A stretch of DNA of 60,529 nt from positions 1 to 60,529 of the forward strand of contig CACXMH010000022.1 in NCBI GenBank assembly GCA_902768715.1, read 5' to 3'. Under the pieces are notes generated by a model. The model made no database searches. It had not been told where the DNA came from and was given only the letters and a program-made list of their open reading frames with translations. How positions within the stretch are numbered: position 1 is the first letter of the stretch; every line of letters starts with the position of its first letter. Shown here piece after piece: positions 7,661 through 60,020 of the stretch. Both the position numbers and the translations under genes were made by a program. This stretch comes from Fibrobacter succinogenes. Lineage in GTDB: Bacteria > Fibrobacterota > Fibrobacteria > Fibrobacterales > Fibrobacteraceae.

Positions 7661-7687
7661 GGAGATCCCCGCCTGCGCGGGGATGAC
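7661..7687. repeat. REP-like palindrome
   Basis: ATCCCCGC (7665-7672) pairs with GCGGGGAT (7677-7684), flanked by GGAG and GAC. It is one of about a dozen copies of the same palindrome in the window and sits between guaB and the nucleotidyltransferase gene. Confidence 0.85.
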
Positions 7688-7701: not shown

Positions 7702-9228
<1,527 letters not shown>

Positions 9229-11360: not shown

Positions 11361-11395
11361 GAGGAATTAGGGGTTAGGATCTAGGGGCTAGAGGT
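11361..11395. repeat. Period-7 array upstream of pth
   Basis: Five 7-base units in a row (GAGGAAT, TAGGGGT, TAGGATC, TAGGGGC, TAGAGGT) start two bases from the pth start codon. The TAG in each unit puts stop codons in all three frames. Confidence 0.8.
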
Positions 11396-11452: not shown

Positions 11453-11547
11453 CCACCTAAAGGTGGCCATGTACACTAAGCGCTAAAGCGCTAAGTGTCC
11501 AAAGGTCGCTTCAGCGTCTCGTCATCCTCGCGAAAGCGAGGATCTCC
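11453..11547. repeat. Cluster of palindromes including a REP-like element
   Basis: Three hairpins follow one another: CCACCT/AGGTGG (11453-11466); ACACT-A-AGCGCT-AA-AGCGCT-A-AGTGT (11473-11498); and the REP-like GTCATCCTCGCGAAAGCGAG with its closing arm (11521-11547). The 366-base gap between pth and the next gene (11359-11724) holds these, the heptad array, and the promoter and leader of the lipoprotein gene. No gene was seen in it. Confidence 0.7.
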
Positions 11548-13702: not shown

Positions 13703-14608
13703 CTACTTCACAGACGCTTCCCGCTCTATCCGTGCAAGATCATCGCCCCATTCGGCCTGGATTTTCTGCTTGAGTTTCTTGGCCAAAGACGGGGCACATC
13801 CTTGAGTAGAGACAGTTACCGCTATATTTTCACCGAAGTCCATACGGGCCGGTACAATAAAGTCCCCATCCAAGTAGTCACAGGCGTTGTTCACCAGAAT
13901 GCGGCGGGCCCGGGCATCATTGCTCACCTGGGCGTTTACTGCCGGCTGGTCGGTACATATAAACACCATGAATATACCGCGAAGGTCCAGCGGTTCGTAA
14001 GGACGATTCTTTAGGATAACGACATTTTTATCCAGCGATTCAAATTCCGGATCAAACTGCGGGGCGACTACAGTAATGCGGGCACCTGTGGGCAAAAGCG
14101 TCTTCACCTTGCGCAGCGCAATACGGCCACCGCCCACCACAAGTACATTACGCCCTTCAAGGTTAAGTTCGATGGAAAAGAGATTCGCCTTAGACGAGAG
14201 TTTGTCATTGCGAGGAGAACTTTGTTCGACGAAGCAATCTCTCTGTGAGTTCACTTCTAATTGGGCATTTCGGACTCCCGCCACCACCATATCGGCAAAT
14301 TCCTTCCAGTCCCCAAGGCAAGGCAAAAGGGTTATGGGAATCTGCGGAAATTCCGCCTGCAATTTTGCAACCACACGGGGAACGTCATTCTTGGAATGCC
14401 GACCGTTCAATAGCAGGTACGGCAAAAGCATAACCGATTCCACATCTTCTCTAAGCAAGGTCCGCAAGTCATTTTCCAGATCTAGAAGGCTAGTACTCGC
14501 CACACGGGTACCGGGCAAGTCATGGTGCAACTTGTCCAGGATTTCCTCGAAGCCCTTGTAGGCTCCCGGTAAAATGCAATGATGGGCGATAATCAGGATA
14601 GCTTTCAC
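13703..14608 (-). CDS. CbiX-like chelatase fused to precorrin-2 dehydrogenase (SirC)
   Basis: Two-domain siroheme enzyme of 301 residues. The N-domain (1-118) resembles CbiX/SirB chelatases: an N-terminal IIAHH and LLLNGRHSKNDVP supply candidate metal-binding His residues. The C-domain (about 140-301) is a SirC/CysG-N dehydrogenase with the NAD motif VLVVGGGRIALRKVK and VNNACDYLDGDFIVPA. Together they would oxidise precorrin-2 to sirohydrochlorin and insert iron. The linker QRDCFVEQSSPRNDK (about 122-136) is the translation of an inserted palindromic repeat (14204-14243). The start overlaps the stop of cobA-hemD by four bases (ATGA type), so the two are translated together. Confidence 0.9.
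   Translation of the reverse strand: MKAILIIAHHCILPGAYKGFEEILDKLHHDLPGTRVASTSLLDLENDLRTLLREDVESVMLLPYLLLNGRHSKNDVPRVVAKLQAEFPQIPITLLPCLGDWKEFADMVVAGVRNAQLEVNSQRDCFVEQSSPRNDKLSSKANLFSIELNLEGRNVLVVGGGRIALRKVKTLLPTGARITVVAPQFDPEFESLDKNVVILKNRPYEPLDLRGIFMVFICTDQPAVNAQVSNDARARRILVNNACDYLDGDFIVPARMDFGENIAVTVSTQGCAPSLAKKLKQKIQAEWGDDLARIEREASVK
14204..14243. repeat. REP-like element inside the cbiX-sirC gene
   Basis: The sequence runs GTCATTGCGAGGAGAAC, TTTGTTCGACGAAG, CAATCTCTC. The ends are inverted (GTCATTGCGAGGAG against the CGAAGCAATCTCTC side), and it is translated as part of the linker between the two enzyme domains. Such palindromes are normally found between genes. Confidence 0.8.
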
Positions 14609-16182
14609 GAGTAATATTCCACAATTTTTTTCACGAGGGAGTCCATGGTGGTCTCGTCTGAGGTGACGGTTTCAAAGCCATGCTTACGGGCGGTAGCTTC
14701 GGTCAGTCGGCCGATGCAGAAAGAGGTTTGAGGTTTGAGGTTCGAGGCACGAGGTTCGGGGTGCGAGTCCGACCCTTCAATGCTTTGTGGCATGACTTTA
14801 ACAAAGTTTTCCACGGCGCTGGAGCTTGCAAAAACAACGGCATCAGCGGATTCGACAGCTTCCCGCTTCCATTCCGGGAGTTCAGAAACTGGAAGCGTCT
14901 CGTAAACCACCCAGCGGGTCGCCTGCGGCAAAAGTTTCTGCAAGGTGTCGTCGGCAAGATTGCCCTGCAAGAGGAGGATTTGAGGTATGGGGTTTGAGGT
15001 CGCACCTTCGGTGCTTTGAGGTACGAGCGTTGCCAAAAGCTTCCCGAGGCCCTCACCGGTATGATCCTCGGGCACGTAATCGCAGCGGATACCGTATTCC
15101 AGCAATTTCTTTTCGGTAATTTTCCCGACACTTGCGATTTTCTTGCCGGCAAGGACGCGCACATCGTAACCGGCGGCAAACAGCTGTCTGAAAAAACTTT
15201 CGACGCCGTTCACGCTGGTAAAAGCAAGAAGGTCGAAGTCTGCGAGGGAATCAAAAATGGCGGAGGAGATCCCCGCCTTCGCGGGGATGACACAAGGGCA
15301 TTCCAGAGTACGGGTTTCTATCATCGGGGTTTCGATAACTTCGGCCCCCAAGGCTGTAAGCCTTGCAGTAATCCCGCTTGCTTGCTTTGCGGCGCGGGTT
15401 ACTACAAGCCGCTTTCCCGAAAGGGGCAGGTTCTTTTTCCAGGCGAGACTCTTGCCAAGCTCGACGACGCCCCCCATGATGGTGATGGCAGGGGCCGTCA
15501 CCTTTTCGCGAACGATGGTCTCCCCCGCCGTCGCTAATGTAGCCATTACCGTCCGCTGGTACGGAGTCGTTCCTTTCTCGATAAAGGCAACCGGTGTTTT
15601 CGGGTCCTTACCGCATTCCACAAGGCGCTGTGCGATAAAGTCCATGTTGGCAATACCCATCAAAAAGATGAGGGTACCCTGGCACTTCGCGAGAGTCTCG
15701 AAGTCGAGGGAAAGTTCACCGTTGGATTCAGCCTTTTCATGGCCGGTGACAATGTGGAAACTGGTGGCAATCCCGCGGTGGCTTACGGGAATTCCCGCAT
15801 AGGCCGGCACAGAAATGGCAGAGGTAATGCCCGGAACAATCTCGAATTCCACACCGGCATTCACAAGTTCCAAAGCCTCTTCGCCGCCACGACCAAACAC
15901 GAAGGGGTCGCCGCCCTTGAGGCGGGCAATGGTCGCATCCGGCATTTCGCAGGCGAACTGCACCAGCAGCTTGTTGATTTCAGATTGTTTGACCTTGTGG
16001 TGCTGGGGCATCTTGCCCACGTCCACCATCTTCGCCTTCGGATTGCACATCCCGAGTATAGCGGGCGAAACCAGACGGTCGTAAACCACCACATCCGCCT
16101 TTTCGAGAATCTCCTTGCCGCGCAGGGTCAAGAGCCCCGGATCACCGGGACCAGCACCAATCAGATAAACCTTTCCAGACAT
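14605..16182 (-). CDS. Uroporphyrinogen-III C-methyltransferase fused to uroporphyrinogen-III synthase (CobA-HemD)
   Basis: The N-half (1-240) is a SUMT: VYLIGAGPGDPGLLTLRG, ARLKGGDPFVFGRGGEE and GITSAISVPAYAGIPVSHRG bind S-adenosylmethionine and substrate. The C-half (about 265-525) is HemD, which closes the uro'gen III ring. The fusion makes uro'gen III and converts it to precorrin-2 for the SirC-CbiX protein encoded next. The start at 16182 (MSGKVYLIG) is chosen because the family begins there; the frame is open 36 bases further. HemD carries three insertions made of genomic repeats: CVIPAKAGIS (15265-15292), PQSTEGATSNPIPQ (14975-15026) and PQSIEGSDSHPEPR (14721-14795). All fall where other HemD proteins have short loops, so the enzyme probably still folds. 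Confidence 0.93.
   Translation of the reverse strand: MSGKVYLIGAGPGDPGLLTLRGKEILEKADVVVYDRLVSPAILGMCNPKAKMVDVGKMPQHHKVKQSEINKLLVQFACEMPDATIARLKGGDPFVFGRGGEEALELVNAGVEFEIVPGITSAISVPAYAGIPVSHRGIATSFHIVTGHEKAESNGELSLDFETLAKCQGTLIFLMGIANMDFIAQRLVECGKDPKTPVAFIEKGTTPYQRTVMATLATAGETIVREKVTAPAITIMGGVVELGKSLAWKKNLPLSGKRLVVTRAAKQASGITARLTALGAEVIETPMIETRTLECPCVIPAKAGISSAIFDSLADFDLLAFTSVNGVESFFRQLFAAGYDVRVLAGKKIASVGKITEKKLLEYGIRCDYVPEDHTGEGLGKLLATLVPQSTEGATSNPIPQILLLQGNLADDTLQKLLPQATRWVVYETLPVSELPEWKREAVESADAVVFASSSAVENFVKVMPQSIEGSDSHPEPRASNLKPQTSFCIGRLTEATARKHGFETVTSDETTMDSLVKKIVEYYS
14721..14795. repeat. Heptad array plus hairpin module inside hemD
   Basis: Seven 7-base units on the + strand (such as AGAGGTT, TGAGGTT, CGAGGCA, CGGGGTG) are followed by a 15-base module of the hairpin type (GACCC-TTC-AATGC-TT) and TGTGGCA. 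The frame stays open through it. Confidence 0.75.
14975..15026. repeat. Heptad-hairpin-heptad module inside hemD
   Basis: TGAGGTA, TGGGGTT and TGAGGTC are followed by the hairpin GCACC-TTC-GGTGC-TT and then TGAGGTA. The intergenic copy at 33551-33628 has the same order with GGGGC-TTC-GCCCC-TT. Confidence 0.85.
15265..15292. repeat. REP-like palindrome inside hemD
   Basis: A perfect copy of the intergenic palindrome (ATCCCCGC-CTTC-GCGGGGAT core) is read in frame as CVIPAKAGIS. Confidence 0.9.
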
Positions 16183-16268: not shown

Positions 16269-16353
16269 GGATCCTCGCCTTCGCGAGGATGACGTTCCTC
16301 AAAGCAAAGCGACCTCAAACCCCTAGATCCTAGCCCCTAAACCCTAGCCCCTA
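16269..16353. repeat. Composite REP plus hairpin plus heptad array
   Basis: On the minus strand the order is five TAG heptads (16353-16319), TGAGGTC, a short GC-TTT-GC hairpin, TGAGGAA, then the REP-like palindrome (16293-16269). The heptads encode the last five residues (VGARV) and the TAG stop of the EAL gene. A partial heptad array lies further left, near 16240-16260, before cobA. Confidence 0.8.
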
Positions 16354-18793: not shown

Positions 18794-20575
18794 ATGGAGT
18801 CCCTAAAATTCAATTCACTCCCCGAATTGTTCTTCGCCACCTGTCATCGAGAGGATTTTGGCGGCTGGTACCAGCGACAAAACGGGACATGGACTCTTTT
18901 TACAAGAGAAAACCTGGAACGAGACACCCAGGCGGTGGCTCTTGCACTCCATAACCGGGGTGTTAACGACGGAGAAAGCATCGGGATTATCGCCGGGAGT
19001 TCCCCCTACTGGTTTATGGCAGACATAGCCACCCAAATAAACCACGCCCGGGTAGTCCCCCTATTCCCCAACATTTCGTCGGAAAATTTCGTTTTCCAGT
19101 GCGAAGACTCCCTTGTCCGAATTCTGGTCATAAACAACTTGAACGACCTGGACGCGCCCCTGAGAGATGCCCTCTCTAAATTTACCACGATTATCTGCAT
19201 CGACTCCGCCTCGCCTCTCCCAGAAAACGGAATATACTGGGACGACCTATTGACCGAAGGCTACGGGCTGATGCAAGAAACGGACAACACAAACTGGCTG
19301 CAGCACCAAATTCAGAGCATACGGCCAGACGACCTTTTCAGCATCATCTACACCAGCGGCTCCACCGGCAGACCCAAAGGGGCAGAGCTCTCCCACCGGA
19401 ACATGCTCTCCCAAATCCAGAGCATCCTGGACCTCTATACCATAGATCCGGAAAAAGACCGTTGCCTTACCATGCTGCCCGTAGCCCATGTATTCGAGCG
19501 GATGGCTGTCTATTTTTACATTCTGAATGGCGCAACCGTCTATTTCGCCGACTCCCCCAAGAATGCCGCCAAAATCATGACAGAGGTAAAGCCCTCCGTA
19601 ATGATTGTGGTCCCCCGCATTCTTGAACGGCTTTACGAGAGCATGACCGCAGCGGCAGACAAGGCCAGAGGGCCTAAGCGGCTCATCATCAAGAACGCCA
19701 TCAAGCTTGCCAAGCTGAACGACCCCACCAAAAAACGCAGCCACGGCATGAGGTTTTTCGACAAGTTGGTCTATTCCAAGATGCGTGCTGCCATCGGAGG
19801 GAACTTCAGGATAATCGTTTCCGGTAGTTGCGCCCTGAACAAGAGCATCTTGCGTTTTTTGCTGAACATCGGGCTTCCGGTTTACGAGGGTTACGGCCTT
19901 ACAGAGTGTTCCCCCGTAGTCAGCGCCAACTGCGACCACGCCCTTGCCCTAGGCAGCGTGGGCAAGCCCCTAAAGCACCTGCAGGTAAAAATTGGCGAAA
20001 ACAACGAAGTCATGGTGAAGGGCGACAGCGTATTTGCAGGCTACCACAACATGCCGGAACTCAACGCCGAAATCTTTACCGAAGACGGATTTTTCAAGAC
20101 GGGAGACCAGGGAAGCATCGACGAAAACGGTTTCCTTTCCCTTACGGGCCGCATCAAGGAGCTCCTAAAGACCAGCACCGGCAAATACGTAAGCCCCAAC
20201 CCCATCGAACTGGAAATCAGCCGTCACCCCCTGGTGGAACAGGCACTGGTCATTGCCAACGACCGCAAGTTCGCCTCCGCACTTATCTGGGTCAACCCCG
20301 AAGGGGCTAGGCGCCTGCTTCGAATTTCCAAGGACGATTTTCGCATGGACCTTGCGCTGAAATCCCTTAGGGTCCGTGAATCCATCCTCCGGCACATCAC
20401 CCGCATCAACCGCAAGCTGAACCACTGGGAAAAAATCTGTAGGTGGAGCCTCATCGGGGACGAACTTACCATAGAATCCGGTCTGCTTACCCCCACCCTA
20501 AAAATCCGCCGAAAAATTGCCGAAGAACGCTACGCCGACAAGATTGAAGGGATGTATTCGACACCCATCTCCTAG
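18794..20575 (+). CDS. Long-chain fatty acid-CoA ligase (AMP-forming)
   Basis: 593-residue ANL-superfamily enzyme that activates a fatty acid through an acyl-AMP. The P-loop is IIYTSGSTGRPKGAELSHRN (about 190-209). YEGYGLTECSPVVS, TGDQGSID and the hinge GRIKELLKTSTGKYVSPNPIE are all present. The overall pattern, without an N-terminal extension, fits the FadD15/long-chain group. The start ATG lies in the 70-base gap from the divergent membrane protein. The stop TAG is the first unit of a period-7 array. The substrate chain length is inferred only. Confidence 0.9.
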   Translation: MESLKFNSLPELFFATCHREDFGGWYQRQNGTWTLFTRENLERDTQAVALALHNRGVNDGESIGIIAGSSPYWFMADIATQINHARVVPLFPNISSENFVFQCEDSLVRILVINNLNDLDAPLRDALSKFTTIICIDSASPLPENGIYWDDLLTEGYGLMQETDNTNWLQHQIQSIRPDDLFSIIYTSGSTGRPKGAELSHRNMLSQIQSILDLYTIDPEKDRCLTMLPVAHVFERMAVYFYILNGATVYFADSPKNAAKIMTEVKPSVMIVVPRILERLYESMTAAADKARGPKRLIIKNAIKLAKLNDPTKKRSHGMRFFDKLVYSKMRAAIGGNFRIIVSGSCALNKSILRFLLNIGLPVYEGYGLTECSPVVSANCDHALALGSVGKPLKHLQVKIGENNEVMVKGDSVFAGYHNMPELNAEIFTEDGFFKTGDQGSIDENGFLSLTGRIKELLKTSTGKYVSPNPIELEISRHPLVEQALVIANDRKFASALIWVNPEGARRLLRISKDDFRMDLALKSLRVRESILRHITRINRKLNHWEKICRWSLIGDELTIESGLLTPTLKIRRKIAEERYADKIEGMYSTPIS

Positions 20576-20600
20576 ATTCTACCCCCTATCCCCTATTTTT
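20573..20600. repeat. Period-7 array at the 3' end of the ligase gene
   Basis: Four units, TAGATTC, TACCCCC, TATCCCC and TATTTTT, start on the stop codon of the ligase gene. Confidence 0.6.
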
Positions 20601-29449: not shown

Positions 29450-29506
29450 TAGGGGTTAGGTTTTAGGGATTAGGGGTTAGGATTTAGGGGGGGGCGTTGT
29501 GAGGAT
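29450..29506. repeat. Clean period-7 array with partial REP
   Basis: Six perfect 7-base registers from 29450 to 29491 (units TAGGGGT, TAGGTTT, TAGGGAT, TAGGGGT, TAGGATT, TAGGGGG) run into GAGGATGACGTTCC, a REP half. The array separates coaD from rsmD. Confidence 0.9.
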
Positions 29507-33550: not shown

Positions 33551-33791
33551 TGAGGTTCTAGGTGTGAGGTCGGGGCTTCGCCCCTTTGAGGTATGGGGTA
33601 TGAGTTATGAGTTATGAGGTGTGAAATTAGTCCATTTTCGTCATGTTCGCGACCTGTGGTGAGCCATGTCGAACCAAAGCGAACATCTGCTTGCATCTCT
33701 CAAGCAGAACCTCGCCTTCGCGAGGATGACAACTCTTGAGACCTGCAGCCCTAATACCTAAAACCTACAACCTAACCCCTATCCCCTACCC
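33551..33791. repeat. Composite intergenic repeat: heptads, TTC-loop hairpin, REP palindromes, heptads
   Basis: TGAGGTT, CTAGGTG and TGAGGTC lead into the hairpin GGGGC-TTC-GCCCC-TT (33572-33586), then TGAGGTA, TGGGGTA, TGAGTTA twice, TGAGGTG and TGAAATT. REP-like elements (33640-33730) follow, then an inverse-orientation TAG heptad array (33749-33791) that ends inside uvrD and includes its TAG stop. This fills the whole 290-base gap between gatC and uvrD; no gene is present. Confidence 0.85.
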
Positions 33792-34649
33792 CACCACCTG
33801 CAGGGCGGCATATTTCAGGATAATGGTACGCAGGTTTCCATCGCCAAAACGCACATCTACGCGGGCGTTGTCCCCCTCTCCGTAGCAGCGGGTAACAGTC
33901 CCAACACCGTACTTGATGTGCCGCACCTTTGCTCCCGGATGGAAAGGATTCTCGCTGTACTCGTCATAGACAATGCGGGGGCCCGACGTATCCACAGAGC
34001 TGGTGGTCGGAGCTACCTTTATGGGATTGCGATAGACGATACGCCGGTCGTTCTTGCGGACCGAATCCGGAACGGAACTCCTGGAGCTGCCGAACCGAGA
34101 CCCGCCCGAAAATCCCGACGAGCCCGTGCTAGAAGCTCCGGAGCCAAAGCTCCGGTTGCGAACAAAAGACGGAGCACTGTTGTAACGGGGCTTTTCAGGA
34201 GCATCAGGCGTCCAGCCCGAAAAGGCGGGCCGTTCATCTATACAAGGCGTAAATTCTACAACAGAAGGGTCAAGTTCCTTCAAGAAACGGGAGGGCGCAA
34301 AAGGCCGGATAGTTCCCTGGAAAAAGCGTCGTTCCGCATGGTACAGGTAAAGCTTCTTTTCGGCACGGGTACAGCCCACGTAGAACAGGCGGCGTTCCTC
34401 TTCAAGCTGGTCGTTGGCCTCCTTGACGCTCAGCATGGAGCTTTCCCGAATCAACGGGAAAATACCGTCGTCACAGCCGGCAATGTGCACCGTATTGAAC
34501 TCCAGGCCCTTCGCCATGTGAATGGTCATGAGAGTTACATGACCCTTGGAATCGTCCACCTTCTTGTCGGCGTCGGTCAAGAGGGAAATATCCTGCAAAA
34601 AGGCATCCAGAGTTGCCCCCGGTCCGCAAGAATTCCTTGTAGGCAACAT
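33786..34649 (-). CDS. UvrD/PcrA helicase, C-terminal part (after break)
   Basis: Second part of a broken UvrD/PcrA helicase. The homologous part begins at TLDAFLQDISLLTD (about 34620) and includes TIHMAKGLEF (motif V), EERRLFYVGCTRAEKKLYL (motif VI) and a C-terminal Tudor-like tail GAKVRHIKYGVGTV. The first 12 residues are out-of-frame sequence. Compared with PcrA, about 28 residues are missing between this part and the N-terminal part, plus a frame change. The stop is supplied by a heptad repeat. Product status (assembly error or real loss) is open. Confidence 0.75.
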   Translation of the reverse strand: MLPTRNSCGPGATLDAFLQDISLLTDADKKVDDSKGHVTLMTIHMAKGLEFNTVHIAGCDDGIFPLIRESSMLSVKEANDQLEEERRLFYVGCTRAEKKLYLYHAERRFFQGTIRPFAPSRFLKELDPSVVEFTPCIDERPAFSGWTPDAPEKPRYNSAPSFVRNRSFGSGASSTGSSGFSGGSRFGSSRSSVPDSVRKNDRRIVYRNPIKVAPTTSSVDTSGPRIVYDEYSENPFHPGAKVRHIKYGVGTVTRCYGEGDNARVDVRFGDGNLRTIILKYAALQVVG

Positions 34650-36177
34650 CGTTTACAATTCGTTCTGCCAAAAGCGGAAGCGGAGTCTCTCCGGCGGCCA
34701 CCAGTTCTTTCCAGGACTGGACCAAATCTACAAAACCTTTCAGCTTGGGAGCGGAACGGGACACACCGCTAGCCTCGGCCACAAGCATCTGCCAGAAGGT
34801 TCCTTCGCCGTTTCGAACGCGGGCAAGGACATTTTCTACCGAAGTCTTGCCGATGGCGCGGGGCGGCGTGTTGATGACCCGCAGGTGGGCGGCATCATCC
34901 TTTTCATTTGAAAGAAGACGCAAATACGAAAGAATATCCCGGACTTCCTTGCGGTCCCAGAACCGCGTGCCGCCAAAAATCACTGATGGAATGCGGTTGT
35001 CGTTCAAGGCCTTTTCTATCACGCGGGACTGGGCATTGGTGCGGTAAAACACCGCCGTCTTGGAGTAATTCGCCTCGCCCGCTACGGCGATCAAATCTGC
35101 TATCTGCTGGGCTTCGCTTCGGTCGTCCATCGTGTGCCGCACACGAATGGGGTCGCCGGCCTCTTCCTTGGAATACACCACTTTTTGCATTTCCAGAGGG
35201 CGCACGTTGTGGGCAATTACGGAGCCCGCCCCCTTCACGATATTTGACGTAGAGCGGTAGTTCCGTTCCAATTTCACGATAGTCACCGGGGCAAAATCCC
35301 TATGGAAATTGCGGATAATCTTGATGTTCGCACCACGCCAGCCGTAAATGCTCTGGTCGTCGTCGCCAACCACCGTCACGTTCTTCCGCTCGTTAATGAG
35401 CAACTTCAAAAGCTCATACTGCACGTCGTTGGTATCTTGATATTCATCTACCACCACGTACTTGTAGCGTTCTGCCAGCTGGTCTGCCAAATGGGGCACT
35501 TTCTGGAGCATGAGCACCGTATTGAACAGCAGGTCGTCAAAATCCATGGCGTTGGATTCCTTGAGGCGCTTCTGGTATTCCCCGTAAAGTCTAGCCATTC
35601 TCTCCTGGTCGGCAAATTCCGCGCGCATCATGGCGATTTCCGGCGTCTGCAAAACAGCTTCGCCGTTGGTATATAGAATGGTGTTCTTGTATCGAGAAAT
35701 GGCTCCGTGAAGTTTTTTTACTTCGGACGCATCGTAATTTTCGCCCAGTTCTTCCTTGAGGATTTCTTTCAGAATCCGTTTCTGGTCATCGTCGTCATAG
35801 ATGGAGAAATTGTTGTCGTACCAGGAGCCGCCCATGGCGTGAATCACGAAATCCTTGGTTAGGCAAAGACGCAATAGCTTAAGGCACACCGAGTGGAACG
35901 TGCCCATCCAGTTGAAGGCCAGGCGGACCTGCAAAAGCTTCTGGATACGCTCCTTCATTTCGCGGGCCGCCTTGTTGGTAAACGTCACCGCCAAAATTCG
36001 GTCCGCCTCCACCTGATGGAATGACACCAGATGGGCAATCTTGTAGGTGATGGCACGCGTCTTGCCCGAACCCGCCCCGGCCAAAATCAGCATAGGGCCG
36101 TCAATCTTTTTGGCAGCCGCCGCCTGTTCCGGGTTCAGTTCACGATTCAAGACAACATCATCAACCACGTTCGCCAT
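34471..36177 (-). CDS. UvrD/PcrA helicase, N-terminal part (before break)
   Basis: 3'-5' helicase of excision and mismatch repair. Motifs present: MLILAGAGSGKTRAITYKI (Walker A), VTFTNKAAREM, VVDEYQDTNDVQ (II), VGDDDQSIYGWRGA (III) and LERNYRSTSNI (IV). Residues after YKEFLRTGG are out of frame from about 34640. The start at 36177 (MANVVDDVVLNREL) has AAGGAG eight bases before; the open frame to 36204 crosses the predicted LexA box and is not chosen. Confidence 0.85.
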   Translation of the reverse strand: MANVVDDVVLNRELNPEQAAAAKKIDGPMLILAGAGSGKTRAITYKIAHLVSFHQVEADRILAVTFTNKAAREMKERIQKLLQVRLAFNWMGTFHSVCLKLLRLCLTKDFVIHAMGGSWYDNNFSIYDDDDQKRILKEILKEELGENYDASEVKKLHGAISRYKNTILYTNGEAVLQTPEIAMMRAEFADQERMARLYGEYQKRLKESNAMDFDDLLFNTVLMLQKVPHLADQLAERYKYVVVDEYQDTNDVQYELLKLLINERKNVTVVGDDDQSIYGWRGANIKIIRNFHRDFAPVTIVKLERNYRSTSNIVKGAGSVIAHNVRPLEMQKVVYSKEEAGDPIRVRHTMDDRSEAQQIADLIAVAGEANYSKTAVFYRTNAQSRVIEKALNDNRIPSVIFGGTRFWDRKEVRDILSYLRLLSNEKDDAAHLRVINTPPRAIGKTSVENVLARVRNGEGTFWQMLVAEASGVSRSAPKLKGFVDLVQSWKELVAAGETPLPLLAERIVNDVAYKEFLRTGGNSGCLFAGYFPLDRRRQEGGRFQGSCNSHDHSHGEGPGVQYGAHCRL

Positions 36178-36189
36178 CAAAAAGCTCCT

Positions 36190-36203
36190 TGCACAAATGT
36201 ACA
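36190..36203. promoter_or_regulatory. LexA-like box upstream of uvrD
   Basis: On the minus strand the site reads TGTACATTTGTGCA, one base from TGCNCN4GTGCA. A TATATT -10-like element lies directly before it. It is 13 bases upstream of the start at 36177. The + strand TTGCACAAATGTACA resembles TTGCACAAACGAACA before recA. Confidence 0.55.
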
Positions 36204-36228
36204 ATATAGCAAAAAAGGCTGAGCAACA

Positions 36229-42507: not shown

Positions 42508-43464
42508 TCACTTCAGTTCGCAGGCCCTGGCTATGATTTCCGGGGACACCCCCTGGGACCGGAGAAATTCTATCACCTGGGCCCGCCCCTTTTCCATGCC
42601 TTTTTCCATGCCTTTTTCAAGGCCCATTTCCATGCCCTTTTCCATGCCCTTCTTCATGCCGGCCCTTCGACCGGAGCGTTCCGCAGCACGCCGGGCATCA
42701 CCGGCACTCACAAAACCCATCCTCTGTCCTATGCTCTTGAAAGCCATCTGCAGTTCCTCCAAGTCCTCTTCCCCAATGAACTCTCCTAAATATAAGTTTA
42801 TTTTTTCCAAAAAACAGTCTTTACCAAAATTTCCCAAAAGTTCCAGACGGCATCCGATAGCGGAAGCCATTTCCGACAACCCACACCTGTCAAAGGCGTA
42901 TTTCATCACCAGGGCCCCAACAGCGGCCTCCACGTTGACTTCCGAAAGACATCTCTCATCGTCGAGCTCGGACAAATTAACCAATGCAAATTCAAAGGGA
43001 AGATCCTTGCCTTGAAATTTCGCACGATTTTTCCTTCTGAAATCGGCCAAAGGGTCCCACCCTCTTGTCCCGTTGTATATGACGATGGCCTTTGTCGGAA
43101 ACCACCGAAAATCCGTATCATTCTTGTTCACCATTATATTGAAAGCGTACCGTCCTAGCTGATCCAGAATCCGTTTATCGGTATAGGACTTGTGTTCCAA
43201 CAGGATTCCGACAAAGAGATCGCCTCCTCCTGCAGATTTCGCCCTGAAGGCCAAATCCGACTCGCCCCTTTCCTGGACCTCGCTAAACAAGCCTGATAGC
43301 GGCGACAGGGTATCCAGATCTACACCGTCAAGTATGGAATCCAGCTCCCGGTTGGATTCGCGCGCAAGGGAGAGCAGGGTTTTGGCGTTGGCGGGTTTTG
43401 AATAGACGTAGCGAAAAAAACCATCATGTTTCTTATTTTTTACCCTTTTGTTTTCTTTTTTCAT
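42508..43464 (-). CDS. Rpn/YhgA-like PD-(D/E)XK nuclease (transposase_31 family)
   Basis: 318 residues. HDGFFRYVYS at the start, SDLAFRAK with the catalytic Asp and ILLEHKSY with ExK match recombination-promoting nucleases and the related 'Rpn family' proteins. QLGRYAF and TKAIVIYNG are further family features. The C-terminal EKGMEKGMEMG-type tandem repeats (about 270-295) are typical of the family. These proteins cut DNA and promote recombination; some behave as defence or phase-variable factors. It lies between two surface-protein genes. Confidence 0.85.
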   Translation of the reverse strand: MKKENKRVKNKKHDGFFRYVYSKPANAKTLLSLARESNRELDSILDGVDLDTLSPLSGLFSEVQERGESDLAFRAKSAGGGDLFVGILLEHKSYTDKRILDQLGRYAFNIMVNKNDTDFRWFPTKAIVIYNGTRGWDPLADFRRKNRAKFQGKDLPFEFALVNLSELDDERCLSEVNVEAAVGALVMKYAFDRCGLSEMASAIGCRLELLGNFGKDCFLEKINLYLGEFIGEEDLEELQMAFKSIGQRMGFVSAGDARRAAERSGRRAGMKKGMEKGMEMGLEKGMEKGMEKGRAQVIEFLRSQGVSPEIIARACELK

Positions 43465-45795: not shown

Positions 45796-45817
45796 CAACC
45801 TGAAGGTTGCTTTTTTT
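45796..45817 (+). terminator. Second terminator hairpin after SRP RNA
   Basis: CAACCT (45796-45801) pairs with AGGTTG (45804-45809), followed by C and seven T. Confidence 0.7.
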
Positions 45818-45833
45818 CGTAAAAAAAACATTC

Positions 45834-45920
45834 GTCATGTTCGCGAAGGCGAACATCCGCTAAAAGGATGCACACAGATCCCCGCCTTCGCGGGGATGAC
45901 GATAGAATCGCGGGGATGAC
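45834..45920. repeat. Two REP-like palindromes plus a partial copy
   Basis: GTCATGTTCGCGAAGGCGAA with arms to 45858, GATCCCCGCCTTCGCGGGGA with arms at 45877-45900, and a partial unit ATCGCGGGGATGAC at 45907-45920 lie between the SRP RNA and the phosphatase gene. The last ends 10 bases before that start codon. Confidence 0.85.
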
Positions 45921-45929
45921 AACAAGAAT

Positions 45930-46544
45930 ATGATTCTCTGGACATTTCGACACACCAAGCCCTACAACCCGAACGACGTCTGTTACGGGCAGTTGGATTT
46001 TGACGTGTCTCCTACGTTTCCCGAAGAATCCTCAAGCGCCATCGGGGACTTTCTAAAGTCCGGCGCCAAGCCCACCAGGCTGTACAGCAGCCCCCTACTC
46101 CGTTGCCTCCGCCTGGCCGAAGAGGTTTCCAAGGCCACAGGGCTTGCCATCGAAAAGGTTGATCCCCTCAAGGAAATCAATTTCGGAACATGGGAAGGCC
46201 AAAAGCTCACCGCCGTGCCCAGAGCCGAAATGACAAGCTGGATGCAGGACCTGCGAGGGTTCCGGTTTCCGCAGGGAGAGAGCTTCTACGACGTGGACAA
46301 GCGGGTCGAGGCCTTTCTAGACACCCTCCCCGACAGCGGCGAATTTTTGTGGGTGACCCACGCGGGCGTCATCGCCGCCCTGCAGCACTTCGCCTGCGGA
46401 GTCCCCGACCAGGACTTTGTAGAGGGCAAGTTCAGCTACACCATGGTGAGCCGTTTCGAGTTTGCACGCAACGCCGAAGGCCACTACCGCGGAACGTTCA
46501 CCAAGATCCATGACGGCATCCAGATGCCACCGCTCCCCCTATAG
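45930..46544 (+). CDS. Histidine phosphatase (phosphoglycerate mutase-like, CobC-type)
   Basis: 204 residues. The catalytic motif is RHTKP (RHG-type with Thr), with LYSSPLLRCLRLAEEV (second Arg), NFGTWEGQ (Glu) and LWVTHAGVI (second His), so the active site is complete. The CYGQLDFDVS segment is close to alpha-ribazole phosphatase (CobC/PhpB) of cobalamin synthesis, but the specificity cannot be settled and no other late-cobalamin genes are here. There is no clear ribosome binding site; the start is ATG at 45930. Confidence 0.85.
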   Translation: MILWTFRHTKPYNPNDVCYGQLDFDVSPTFPEESSSAIGDFLKSGAKPTRLYSSPLLRCLRLAEEVSKATGLAIEKVDPLKEINFGTWEGQKLTAVPRAEMTSWMQDLRGFRFPQGESFYDVDKRVEAFLDTLPDSGEFLWVTHAGVIAALQHFACGVPDQDFVEGKFSYTMVSRFEFARNAEGHYRGTFTKIHDGIQMPPLPL

Positions 46545-46548
46545 CAAA

Positions 46549-46609
46549 TGTGAGATGTGTAATGTGAAATGTGAAATTGGTCATTACACATTACACATTG
46601 CACATTAGT
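46549..46609. repeat. Heptad palindrome between convergent genes
   Basis: Four units on the left (TGTGAGA, TGTGTAA, TGTGAAA, TGTGAAA) and four on the right (CATTACA, CATTACA, CATTGCA, CATTAGT) are inverted copies around TTGGT. The array fills the gap between the phosphatase stop and the membrane protein stop and can form a hairpin; it has no T-run. Confidence 0.8.
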
Positions 46610-47565
46610 TAAAAGTCCAGCGTCACCAGCGCCTGGGCGCCACCCGTAAGGTTCGGCAACAACGCCAAGTGTACCGGGTTGTCAAAGTCGCTCAAGAGCG
46701 CATCTACCGCCGCATCGCCAATGGAGTACAGATAAATTAATGCAATACCCCAGATGTACTGGTTCCTGTTCTTACGGTAATACGTGAGGCGTTCCGCCAC
46801 CCGCTCGTAATCCTCGGATTCCGGACTTTCCCGTTCCATTACGTGCTTGCGTTCCACATAGTAGTTGACCATCTTTTGCGATGTCCAGATGCTGGTACTT
46901 GCGCCGATGAGTCCCATGTACAGTAGCCCTGCCTTGCCGAACTCCCCGTTGTACATCTGCCCAAAGCCAGGAATCAAGCCCCAAAGAACGGCAGCCTTCA
47001 TACTGCGGAGTTCTACGCTCCTGTAGTTGTTGTTCCACCATATTCCAAAGGCGTCGAACATTCCGTATAGGTGAAGTCCCAAGAGCCAGGCGTTCTCCGC
47101 AATGCGCAAGTCCTCCTGTTCCTTTTTCTTGTCACTCTTTTCGCGGACTCGGTTCACGAACTCATTGCGTTTTTCCTGGTATGCAGGAATGCTGTCCCGC
47201 TCCGCAAAAGCCAACTTGCGAGTATAAACGGCCACGGAATCCTGAAAGGGCTTGGCCTGCTTCAACACACGGTCTTTCTGATAAGCCTTGTTATAATAGA
47301 CTTCGTAAAAGAGGAACGCCTCAAATGCGGTAATGAACCCGCCCCGTATGTAATGCTCGGTGTAATAATGCCCGCCACCGGGGAATATGCTGAAAAGCAT
47401 GGTCAGGGGGAGTGAATTGCGAGTAGTGGGAATATCCCATTCGTTCACTGTAAGTGTATCAATGGATTCAATGCCGGTCTTGCCCTTTTGGAGCGGGTCG
47501 CTCTGTGCACAGACCAGGGAGACACCCAGGCACAGAAGCAGGGCTATGTAGGCAAAGAATTTCAT
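46609..47565 (-). CDS. Membrane protein, DUF5683-like
   Basis: 318 residues. The signal peptide MKFFAYIALLLCLGVSLVCA is followed by a hydrophobic segment around SIFPGGGHYY (about 50-70). Two more segments hold WGLIPGFGQMYNGEFGKA and IWGIALIYLYSIGDA. The G-x-GQMYNG pattern and the repeated Pro-Gly-x-Gly motif are typical of DUF5683 proteins of Bacteroidetes and relatives. The charged middle (DKKKEQEDLR) is predicted coiled. Function is unknown. A repeat region lies upstream. Confidence 0.7.
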   Translation of the reverse strand: MKFFAYIALLLCLGVSLVCAQSDPLQKGKTGIESIDTLTVNEWDIPTTRNSLPLTMLFSIFPGGGHYYTEHYIRGGFITAFEAFLFYEVYYNKAYQKDRVLKQAKPFQDSVAVYTRKLAFAERDSIPAYQEKRNEFVNRVREKSDKKKEQEDLRIAENAWLLGLHLYGMFDAFGIWWNNNYRSVELRSMKAAVLWGLIPGFGQMYNGEFGKAGLLYMGLIGASTSIWTSQKMVNYYVERKHVMERESPESEDYERVAERLTYYRKNRNQYIWGIALIYLYSIGDAAVDALLSDFDNPVHLALLPNLTGGAQALVTLDF

Positions 47566-47584: not shown

Positions 47585-47661
47585 GAGGGATTAGGGGTTA
47601 GGATCTAGGGGTTAGTGGTTGGTGGTCTCAAGAGTCGTCATCCTCGCGGAGGCGAGGATCC
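47585..47661. repeat. Heptad array joined to a REP palindrome
   Basis: Heptads such as TAGGGGT, TAGGATC and TAGTGGT (47585-47626) are followed by GGTCTCAAGAGTCGTCATCC and a REP palindrome (47637-47661). The junction TCTCAAGAGT before GTCATCC recurs, on the other strand, at 33730-33745. Confidence 0.85.
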
Positions 47662-54313: not shown

Positions 54314-54468
54314 TTTGACGCTCCCTCTTCAAGGTTCCCCTATAGTGAATATACTTCCATTTTGGCACGGTTATTGCGTCTACCATGTCGAAAACAGGGT
54401 TAGACTGTCATTTTGTTTCATTTTGAAACGTTTTGGCAGCCTAAACCGCTCGAAAATTAAACATCAAG

Positions 54469-54497
54469 GAGATTCCCGGTCAAGCCGGGAATGACAA
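54469..54497. repeat. REP-like palindrome upstream of htpG
   Basis: GGAGATTCCCGG and CCGGGAATGAC pair around TCAAG. It ends 11 bases before the htpG start codon, so it is in the leader. Confidence 0.8.
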
Positions 54498-54508
54498 AGG
54501 ACAGAAAA

Positions 54509-55453
54509 ATGGCAACAGAAAAGATGGAGTTCCAGACCGAAGTTCGCGACATGCTGAACTTGATGATCAATTCCCTTTACAGCAACAAGGAAATCTTCCT
54601 CCGCGAGCTCGTTTCCAACGCGGCGGACGCACTGGACAAGCGTCGTTTCCTTTCGCTTTCGAACGCCGACCTTCTGCCGCAGGGCACGCAGCTCCGCATC
54701 GACATCTCGGTGAACAAGGAAGGCAAGCGCATCGTTGTCGAGGACAACGGTATCGGCATGAACAAGGAAGACTTAATCAACTGTCTCGGCACCATCGCCC
54801 GTAGCGGCACCAAGAACTTCATCAAGAATCTCAAGGAAGGCGACAAGGGCAGCGTCGATCTCATCGGCCAGTTCGGCGTGGGTTTCTACTCCGTGTTCAT
54901 GGTCGCCAAAAAGGTCGAAGTCCTCACGCTCAAGGCAGGCGAAAAGCAGGGTTACCTGTGGGCCTCCGAAGGCACGGGCGATTTCGAGATTTCCGAAGCC
55001 CCGCGCGACAAGGTCGGTACCAAGATTACCTTGTACCTGAAGGACGACGAAGACGCGGGCGACTTTGCCAGCGATTGGAAGATCAAGGACATCGTCCAGA
55101 AGTACAGCGGCTTTGTGAGTTACGGCATCTACTTCCACCCGGAAGCCACCAAGAACGACAAGGGCGAACTCGAAGAAAAGCCCGAAGAACGCCTGAACGA
55201 AAAGCAGGCCTTGTGGCGCCAGAGCGAAAAGGAAGTCACCGAAGAACAGTACAAGGATTTCTACAACGTCATCAGCCACGAAGCCGACGAACCGGCCGCC
55301 TGGAGCCACAGCCACGCCGAAGGTTCCCAGGAATTCTGGAGCCTCGTACGCTTTGCATGGCCTGAAGCTCTACGTGAAGAAGGTCTTTATCATGGACGAC
55401 TGCAAGGACCTGCTGCCGCCTTGGCTCCGCTTTGTGCGCGGCGTGGTAGATAG
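54509..55453 (+). CDS. htpG: Hsp90 chaperone HtpG, N-terminal part (before break)
   Basis: The GHKL ATPase domain is complete: VSNAADALDKRRF, DNGIGM, IARSGTKNF and GQFGVGFYSVFMVAK. The middle domain is read to GSQEFWSLV, then the frame is lost (RFAWPEALRE). Compared with E. coli HtpG, about 14 residues of the segment YIPSQAP...HK are missing at the break. ATG at 54509 (MATEKMEF) is used; an upstream ATG lies in the REP. Confidence 0.85.
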   Translation: MATEKMEFQTEVRDMLNLMINSLYSNKEIFLRELVSNAADALDKRRFLSLSNADLLPQGTQLRIDISVNKEGKRIVVEDNGIGMNKEDLINCLGTIARSGTKNFIKNLKEGDKGSVDLIGQFGVGFYSVFMVAKKVEVLTLKAGEKQGYLWASEGTGDFEISEAPRDKVGTKITLYLKDDEDAGDFASDWKIKDIVQKYSGFVSYGIYFHPEATKNDKGELEEKPEERLNEKQALWRQSEKEVTEEQYKDFYNVISHEADEPAAWSHSHAEGSQEFWSLVRFAWPEALREEGLYHGRLQGPAAALAPLCARRGR

Positions 55454-56354
55454 CGAAGACTTGCCGCTGAACGTTTCCCGTGAAATCTTGCAGAACAATA
55501 AGATCATCACCAACATCCGTAAGCACGTGATCAAGAAGGTGCTCGACACCTTGCAGAACATGGCCGACAAGGATGCCGCGAAGTACAACGCCTGGTGGCG
55601 CGAACTCGGCATGGTCTTGAAGGAAGGCTTCTACATGAACTGGGAGCATCTTGACGAACTCAAGAAGTTGCTCCGCTTCGAAAGCACCAAGACGGAAGGC
55701 GACGCTCTCGTGGGCCTTGACGAATACGTGAAGCGCATGCCGGAAGGCCAGAAGGAAATTTATTACCTCATCGGCGACAAGAATGCCGTGAAGAGCAATC
55801 CGATGCTTGAAGCCTTCAAGGCGAAGGGCTACGAAGTGCTGCTCATGAGCGACGGCATCGACGAATTCATGATGTCTAGCCTCCAGGAATTCGGCGACAA
55901 GAAGTTCCACGACATCGCCCGCGGCGACGTGGATTTCGAAAAGACCGAAGACGAAAAGAAGGCCGAAGAAGCCAACAAGGGAATCTTCAAGGGCCTCTGC
56001 GAAAACCTGCAGAAGGTCTTGGACGAAGACATCAAGGAAGTCCGCGTGTCTAGCCGTCTGAAGGACAGCCCCTGCTGCCTCGTGACCAGCGAAGATGCAA
56101 TGAGCGCCCAGATGGAACGCATGATGAAGGCCATGGGCCAGAAGAACTTGCCGAAGAGCAAGCGCATTCTGGAAATCAACCCGACGCACCCGATTTGCGA
56201 AATGCTCAAGAAGAAAGCCGAAGCGGGTGATGATCTGGGCGACTGGCCGAAGGCCCTCTACGGTCAGGCTTTGCTTGCCGAAGGAAGCCCGCTGCCGAAC
56301 CCGGCGGAATATGTGTCTGCGATTACTAAACTGCTGACGGCAAGTGTGAAGTGA
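55353..56354 (+). CDS. htpG: Hsp90 chaperone HtpG, C-terminal part (after break)
   Basis: Resumes at HGLKLYVKKVFIMDDC with the middle-domain LPLNVSREILQ and continues through the C-terminal dimerisation domain to 56354. It has no start codon of its own; the TTG at 55353 is an artefact of the break. With the first part it would be about 620 residues. A terminator follows. If the deletion is real, the cell lacks a normal HtpG. Confidence 0.82.
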   Translation: MHGLKLYVKKVFIMDDCKDLLPPWLRFVRGVVDSEDLPLNVSREILQNNKIITNIRKHVIKKVLDTLQNMADKDAAKYNAWWRELGMVLKEGFYMNWEHLDELKKLLRFESTKTEGDALVGLDEYVKRMPEGQKEIYYLIGDKNAVKSNPMLEAFKAKGYEVLLMSDGIDEFMMSSLQEFGDKKFHDIARGDVDFEKTEDEKKAEEANKGIFKGLCENLQKVLDEDIKEVRVSSRLKDSPCCLVTSEDAMSAQMERMMKAMGQKNLPKSKRILEINPTHPICEMLKKKAEAGDDLGDWPKALYGQALLAEGSPLPNPAEYVSAITKLLTASVK

Positions 56355-59993: not shown

Positions 59994-60020
59994 GGAGATC
60001 CCCGCCTTCGCGGGGATGAC
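59994..60020. repeat. REP-like palindrome between ilvC and its terminator
   Basis: GGAG then ATCCCCGC-CTTC-GCGGGGAT then GAC, the same core as the copies at 15265 and 45877. Confidence 0.9.

Follow-up and report, generated by a model that had tools for sequence, protein, structure and literature searches.

The gap between uvrD and gatC in a Fibrobacter genome (33551-33792) is occupied by heptad arrays, a hairpin and REP palindromes, and the question that it raises is whether these parts form a single element, and of what kind. The window analysed, 60,529 nt in all, is part of a Fibrobacter MAG of 2.84 Mb which is 95% complete. A first-pass annotation of this DNA had proposed a modular repeat family, in which many gaps combine period-7 arrays, TTC-loop hairpins and REP-like palindromes. 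Arrays were detected in the sequence display, with Tandem Repeats Finder (TRF), by de novo period scans and by pattern searches, and the features identified are listed in Table 1.

A period scan of 460 kb of the genome identified 33 intergenic and 11 coding period-7 segments, compared with 0 in first-order Markov shuffles. Seven was the only short period to stand out; the others were near 0, apart from multiples of 7 and, inside genes, also of 3. For the whole genome, the TAGG-triplet pattern TAGGNNNTAGGNNNTAGG was matched 276 + 317 = 593 times (1 + 1 for the reversed pattern used as control), the REP core was present in 96 exact copies (0 for the control), and the TTC-hairpin module between GAGGTC and TTTGAGG was found 19 times (versus 0), its paired stems being of at least five kinds. 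As the counts of period-7 segments, TAGG triplets, REP cores and hairpin modules all far exceed those of the controls, the period is indeed seven and the modules do not occur independently at chance levels. The arrays are heptameric simple sequence repeats, that is, tandem 7-nt units, mostly intergenic and well above chance. An artefact of MAG assembly was rejected, as arrays are also present in two genomes of 9-10 contigs and about 100% completeness (G050 and G055), and the exact units differ among species.

The modules annotated previously were largely recovered. TRF found the arrays at 16320, 29450, 33587, 33750, 46546/46582 and 47586, and the shorter ones at 9201, 11361 and 20561 were retrieved by unit analysis. 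At 33551 heptad units are present, but as a few imperfect units ahead of the hairpin rather than as the array that had been annotated. The TTC-loop hairpin lies at 33572-33586, between TGAGGTC and TTTGAGG, and has its coding copy at 14980-15024. All of the REPs on the original list were found, together with two others, one at 33640-33687 (the partner of 33708-33730) and one at 15269-15291, inside a gene.

Table 1. Repeat modules located in the window (strand "." where the array is self-inverted).
Position	Strand	Feature	Basis
7665-7687	-	CGTC-type REP	core search
9201-9228	+	short heptad array, 4 units	unit analysis
11361-11395	+	short heptad array, 5 units	unit analysis
11521-11545	+	CGTC-type REP	REP analysis
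14722-14793	-	heptad array in hemD coding sequence, read as MPQSIEGSDSHPEPRASNLKPQTS	hemD comparison
14980-15024	-	heptads and TTC hairpin in hemD, read as VPQSTEGATSNPIPQ	hemD comparison, module search
15262-15291	-	REP in hemD, read as VIPAKAGISS	hemD comparison, core search
16271-16293	-	CGTC-type REP joined to heptad arm via TTTGAGGTCGCTTTGCTTTGAGGAAC	pattern search
16320-16353	-	heptad arm containing TAG stop codon of gene at 16337	TRF, unit analysis
20561-20595	-	short heptad array overlapping TAG stop of 18794-20575(+), abutting next promoter	unit analysis
29450-29490	+	six-unit heptad arm TAGGGGT TAGGTTT TAGGGAT TAGGGGT TAGGATT TAGGGGG	TRF, unit analysis
33551-33571	+	outer imperfect heptad units of left arm (TGAGGTTCTAGGTGTGAGGTC), beside gatC promoter region	sequence, orthologous gaps
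33566-33591	+	TTC-loop hairpin module GAGGTC-GGGGC-TTC-GCCCC-TTTGAGG	sequence, module search
33587-33624	+	left heptad arm, TGAGGTA type	TRF
33640-33687	+	CGTC-type REP 1 of inverted REP doublet (GTCATGTTCGCG...CGAACATC)	sequence, gap self-comparison
33708-33730	-	CGTC-type REP 2 (GTCATCCTCGCGAAGGCGAGGTT on minus strand)	sequence
33731-33741	-	linker CAAGAGTT / TCTCAAGAGT, joining heptads to REP	pattern search
33750-33792	-	right heptad arm TAGGGGA TAGGGGT TAGGTTG TAGGTTT TAGGTAT TAGGGCT; first unit holds uvrD stop codon TAG	TRF, unit analysis
45798-45929	-	132 nt with REP copies (about 45834 and 45878-45900), missing from L005	L005 comparison, core search
46546-46607	.	self-inverted ATGTGNA heptad array between convergent genes	TRF, folding
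47586-47620	+	heptad arm (TAGGGGT TAGGATC TAGGGGT TAGTGGT), directly upstream of -10-like element of DUF5683 gene	TRF
47626-47635	+	linker TCTCAAGAGT	pattern search
47637-47659	+	CGTC-type REP; with linker and flank (74 nt) missing from L005	L005 comparison, core search
54466-54498	-	single REP insertion, 33 nt, missing from L005	L005 comparison
59998-60020	-	CGTC-type REP	core search

The heptads of the source genome belong to several dialects (TAGGTNN, TAGGGGY/TAGGATY, TAGTGGT, TGAGGTN, CGAGGTT, ATGTGNA, AGACGAG and GAATTCG), to which other Fibrobacter species add ATCAATY, CTCACAA, TAGTTAC, AATTCAT, TTGGTCA and TAGGAAG/TAGGCGG, always with a step of seven. The number of TAGG array matches per genome ranged from 0 to 593, with none in several complete genomes of the genus, and AGACGAG triplets were present in 50 of 101 family members. 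Strong period-7 arrays of the TAGGGTA/TGGGGTA type were also observed outside Fibrobacter proper, in another genus of the family (G005; L117 and L118). Among 34 TAGG arrays (195 units), the TAGG anchor was kept at 91-99% per position, and positions 5-7 varied within a limited vocabulary. Identical neighbouring units accounted for 5.0%, the same as after shuffling within arrays (5.0%), and slippage as the sole source of the TAGG unit variety was rejected, as neighbours resemble one another no more than they do after shuffling. A writer enzyme, RNA-templated or otherwise, that adds dialect-specific heptads at both termini of an intermediate form of the element would suit the constant period with changing letters, the limited vocabulary and the lack of an excess of identical neighbours. 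However, no RVT_1 reverse transcriptase was found in the source genome, on which ground reverse-transcriptase-templated heptads were rejected, and changes in copy number by exact units and local runs (TAGTGGT x6) need no writer; this is the least probable of the explanations considered here.

The REP ends carry yGTCATCC, which corresponds to a terminal CGTC or TGTC tag, and the palindromes have the form GTC-ATCCTCGC-GAAG-GCGAGGAT-CC, with variants. This is the stem of 8-9 bp beginning with AT, loop of 4-5 nt and short unpaired tail of CGTC-REPs, and the REPs fit this known family, which has no known dedicated transposase (Di Nocera et al. 2013, PMC3733652). Fibrobacter REPs share with CGTC-REPs the CGTC/TGTC tag, the 8-9 bp stem beginning with AT, the short loop, the CC-like tail, inverted doublets, intragenic copies and the lack of a known dedicated transposase, but the reported phyla do not include Fibrobacterota, and the Fibrobacter REPs are tied by a fixed linker to heptad arms (PMC3733652). 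Pairs of inverted REPs with a short spacer were found, as in REPINs, and so were REPs of alternating orientation combined with other recurring modules, as in BIMEs. The likeness to BIMEs and REPINs extends to conserved spacers, a mosaic with short modules, high copy number and intergenic position, whereas in Fibrobacter the outer modules are heptad arrays, the REPs are of the CGTC and not the GTAG type, RAYT is lacking, and several members have no REP (PMC3116915, PMC2817692). At three other places (L079:6864, L082:1448 and L087:4006) a REP was nested in the loop of another REP, GTCATCCCCGCT-[GTCATTCTGGAG...GATAGAATCA]-CGGGGATCT, which suggests that hairpin loops are targets.

The earlier claim that heptads and REP are joined by a shared linker was borne out. 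TCTCAAGAGT is present exactly at 33732-33741 (minus strand) and at 47626-47635 (plus strand), 2 occurrences for 0.10 expected, and at both sites it links G-rich heptads with the REP, on the GTCATCC side of the latter. The order on one strand is G-rich heptads, a recurring linker (GGGCTGCAGGTCTCAAGAGTT or TTTGAGGTCGCTTCGCTTTGAGGAAC) and the tagged REP end. The linker CAAGARNTGTCATCC was found in 20 copies in the source genome and in 10-19 copies in six close relatives (G032, G080, G081, G090, G092 and G096), with at most 1 copy in any other sampled genome, and is otherwise confined to one clade of seven species. In a self-comparison of 406 gaps, composites were repeated at distant places with their modules in the same order, and the dispersed copies agree with the modular family first proposed. 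One type consists of a TGAGG arm, a REP, the spacer CCGCTTACTGCAATCCAGCGGATCC, a second REP and a CCTA arm, and 33551-33792 belongs to this type; another lacks REPs and has two small hairpins between a TAGGTNN arm and a CCTANNN arm. The heptad-linker-REP composite described previously does recur, but it is only one of several architectures, several of which are REP-less.

Array geometry was examined in a sample of 860 kb out of the 2.84-Mb genome. Regardless of how the genes are transcribed, 97 of 111 arrays had their G-rich strand running inward from the flanking genes (97 to 14; binomial p about 2e-16). The plus strand was G-rich for arrays on the left side of the gap (49 to 8) and C-rich for those on the right side (48 to 6), each side being half of the gap. 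Convergent, divergent and tandem gaps all obeyed this rule, as did gaps with a single array; orientation therefore tracks the gap rather than transcription, which is what an element with inverted arms would show. Other species followed the rule less strictly (29 to 12, p 0.012). All three frames of at least one strand are stopped by 84 of 109 arrays, as opposed to 17% of intergenic pieces taken at random. The idea that the arrays serve to provide such stops was rejected, as the orientation at gene starts shows that stops are not the organising principle. The inverted heptad arms are terminal inverted repeats of the kind that defines MITEs, alike in type and not identical. Pairing of the arms was predicted at -18.2 kcal/mol, compared with -9.2 kcal/mol when one arm was flipped. 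The dialect match between the two arms of a gap was not significant (-18.3 versus -16.6 +/- 1.5 kcal/mol for swapped arms), and with so small an excess, sequence-matched pairing between the arms was rejected. The self-inverted array at 46546-46607 is predicted to form a near-perfect hairpin (-29.6 kcal/mol, z -5.8).

Present and absent sites were compared at orthologous positions. Over about 13 kb, the source genome and the close relative L005 (about 94% identity) differ by five element-sized segments (33, 74, 132, 145 and 182 nt) and by a single 7-nt step, and no clear target-site duplication was observed at the five insertion differences. The convergent gap beside the DUF5683 gene is an empty site in several species; at the DUF5683 locus, L005 has the array and lacks the REP of the window. 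When the uvrD-gatC gap was compared across 30 genomes, the stop codon was followed immediately by the -10 element in some species and a canonical terminator was present in others, and in still others heptad elements, representing at least six dialects, had been inserted between stop codon and -10 element. Differences among the arrays of the close clade amount to whole units, with TAGTGGT x6 versus x1. The presence and absence of copies is again in line with the proposed family.

These comparisons bear on the alternative that there is no composite, and that microsatellite-like heptads born in place by slippage share free space with independently inserting REPs. Arrays with no nearby REP are common, the DUF5683 locus of L005 has the array and not the REP, the exact 7-nt steps fit slippage, and polymerase slippage has been given as the cause of the over-representation of heptamers in bacteria (PMC4692102). 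However, at 20 places, and in one clade only, heptads are connected with the same REP side by a fixed linker, longer composites recur at distant loci, the arms are inverted about the gap, and slippage predicts like neighbours, which the TAGG units are not. Separate origins are considered unlikely; this is the alternative to be taken most seriously.

Three genes of the window showed differences of other kinds. The uvrD gene (33786-36204, minus strand) is divided into two overlapping reading frames (overlap 34471-34649), and in nearly all genus-mates it is one frame of about 810-875 aa; the split is either a sequencing or assembly indel or a real frameshift. As htpG (HSP90-like, 54491-56354, plus strand) also appears as two overlapping frames (54491-55453 and 55353-56354), two housekeeping genes in the window look frameshifted. 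The gene for a Transposase_31/YhgA-like protein (42508-43464, minus strand) has a 12-nt tandem repeat close to its C-terminus, and is 36 nt (three 12-nt units) shorter in L005.

Elements were also found within genes. The hemD/siroheme synthase gene (14605-16182) carries REP, heptad and TTC-hairpin insertions, all of which are read in frame, and in hemD of relatives VSRLSSLVSRLS is read from AGACGAG heptads. Four HemD loops carry insertions of REPs, heptads or REP doublets, and in other species these loops hold a different element or no element. Rickettsia palindromic elements are short palindromes inserted in frame in conserved proteins, and in this they are alike; unlike them, Fibrobacter also inserts heptad arrays and TTC hairpins, and does so at the same loops in different species. 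Arrays of AGACGAG and GAATTCG lie within long predicted genes at L075:12627, L086:5639, L087:15590, L080:5588 and L158:11825, and are probably further in-frame insertions like those of hemD.

Y1_Tnp, RVT_1 and Rpn/PDDEXK were the families examined as candidate mobilisers. A RAYT-type transposase had been expected from the first-pass annotation, but no Y1_Tnp protein was found in the source genome (95% complete), and the presence of Y1_Tnp in 23 of 71 sampled genus members was unrelated to heptad counts; RAYT was rejected as mobiliser on both grounds. Rpn/PDDEXK nucleases were rejected as the cause because they are nearly universal among genomes, with arrays or without. A system of ordinary REPINs that a RAYT transposase mobilises, heptads being mere passengers, is already disfavoured by these results. 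It would explain the resemblance of the inverted REP doublets, with their tags outward, to REPINs, and Y1_Tnp does exist in the genus. However, none is listed for the heptad-rich relatives G080, G081, G090, G094 and G096, the REPs are of a type with no known dedicated transposase (PMC3733652), and several architectures are REP-less, which makes this explanation very improbable.

At gene ends, canonical intrinsic terminators were found in 12 of 85 cases with arrays and in 108 of 303 without (odds ratio 0.30, p 1e-4; odds ratio 0.26, p 6e-5 for gaps of 60-400 nt), a deficit which is a correlation and might only mean that elements survive in places that had, or needed, no terminator. The arrays are not themselves intrinsic terminators with a GC-rich hairpin and U-run; the folded array at 46540-46612 has no U-run. 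Taken with the hairpin folding, the lower frequency of terminators in array gaps suggests a capacity of the arms to act as ends of transcripts. The arrays might be chiefly selected cis elements, such as terminators, insulators or sites for RNA- or DNA-binding proteins, and not mobile DNA. Their position exactly between stop codon and -10, the orientation rule, the terminator deficit and the constant four-letter anchor with three variable positions would be explained, but not the presence or absence of arrays among close relatives, the total lack of TAGG arrays in several complete genus-mates, the independence of orientation from transcription, or the copies within hemD. This explanation is judged rather unlikely.

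We lean, with modest confidence, towards non-autonomous mosaics resembling MITEs, BIMEs and REPINs, with slippage-prone heptad arms that act in part as hairpins at RNA 3' ends. Each element would consist of a hairpin core (a CGTC-type REP doublet, a pair of small hairpins, or a short loop alone) between two inverted heptad arms, and would be copied to new sites, presumably by transposition. The arms would lengthen and shorten by exactly 7 nt at a time, most simply through replication slippage or unequal exchange, of which we infer slippage. Selection would retain elements where they are harmless, downstream of a stop codon and short of the core promoter that follows, or in protein loops where they are in frame. 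In 3' gaps, the transcribed arms would fold into long hairpins, probably replacing ordinary intrinsic terminators or 3'-end stabilisers. Several observations count against such mosaics: there was no candidate transposase among the examined families and no clean target-site duplication at the best insertion sites, TAGG neighbours are no more alike than shuffled units where simple slippage alone predicts otherwise, arm dialects match no better, to a significant degree, than those of swapped arms, the orientation rule is weaker in other species and the link to terminators is correlational. A new kind of mobile element, in which heptad arrays are terminal inverted repeats generated during movement with an intrinsic 7-nt step and a dialect for each lineage on the same architecture, is improbable.

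Heptameric repeats and REPs are known kinds of sequence, and REP mosaics and intragenic REPs have been documented in several phyla (PMC3116915, PMC2817692, PMC3733652). The initial view that heptads are known from filamentous cyanobacteria was too narrow, as they are also reported from Xanthomonas, Beggiatoaceae and Bacteroidetes (PMC4692102, PMC4679880). The GGGNATC heptamers of Xanthomonas and Nostoc are likewise degenerate, with fixed and variable positions, are mostly non-coding, have been noted in inverted pairs, and vary in length and sequence between related genomes; there, however, the study considered one heptad type per organism, whereas Fibrobacter has many dialects per genome within hairpin/REP composites (Rehm et al. 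2015, PMC4692102). The TAACTGA heptamers of Beggiatoaceae, Cyanobacteria and Bacteroidetes and the cyanobacterial STRRs are also intergenic tandem heptads, sporadic among species, with 7-nt indels between strains and mixtures of different heptads (MacGregor 2015, PMC4679880). Those of the Orange Guaymas Beggiatoaceae (BOGUAY) are mostly in one orientation upstream of start codons, in contrast to the inverted arms at both gap sides, independent of transcription, in Fibrobacter.

In agreement with the statement that none had been described in this phylum, no Fibrobacter report was found in a literature search that mostly covered sources other than subscription journals. As far as could be found, three features are undescribed: the union of inverted heptad arms with a REP or hairpin core, the shift of dialect while architecture and period stay fixed, and the rule of placement. 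To our knowledge, heptad repeats have been noticed in scattered bacteria for decades without an explanation for the unit of seven. Fibrobacter offers genomes with no TAGG arrays and genomes with hundreds, in many words and always of seven letters, as well as gain, loss and unit-by-unit change at orthologous sites. This variety and site history make the origin of the heptads, their link to REPs and hairpins, and their link to the ends of transcription testable by comparison and experiment. The genomes of these rumen and gut bacteria hold hundreds of short mosaic elements in the gaps between genes, and sometimes in frame within genes, where, as in hemD, they yield new protein loops; the words of the repeat change from species to species and its length stays at seven.
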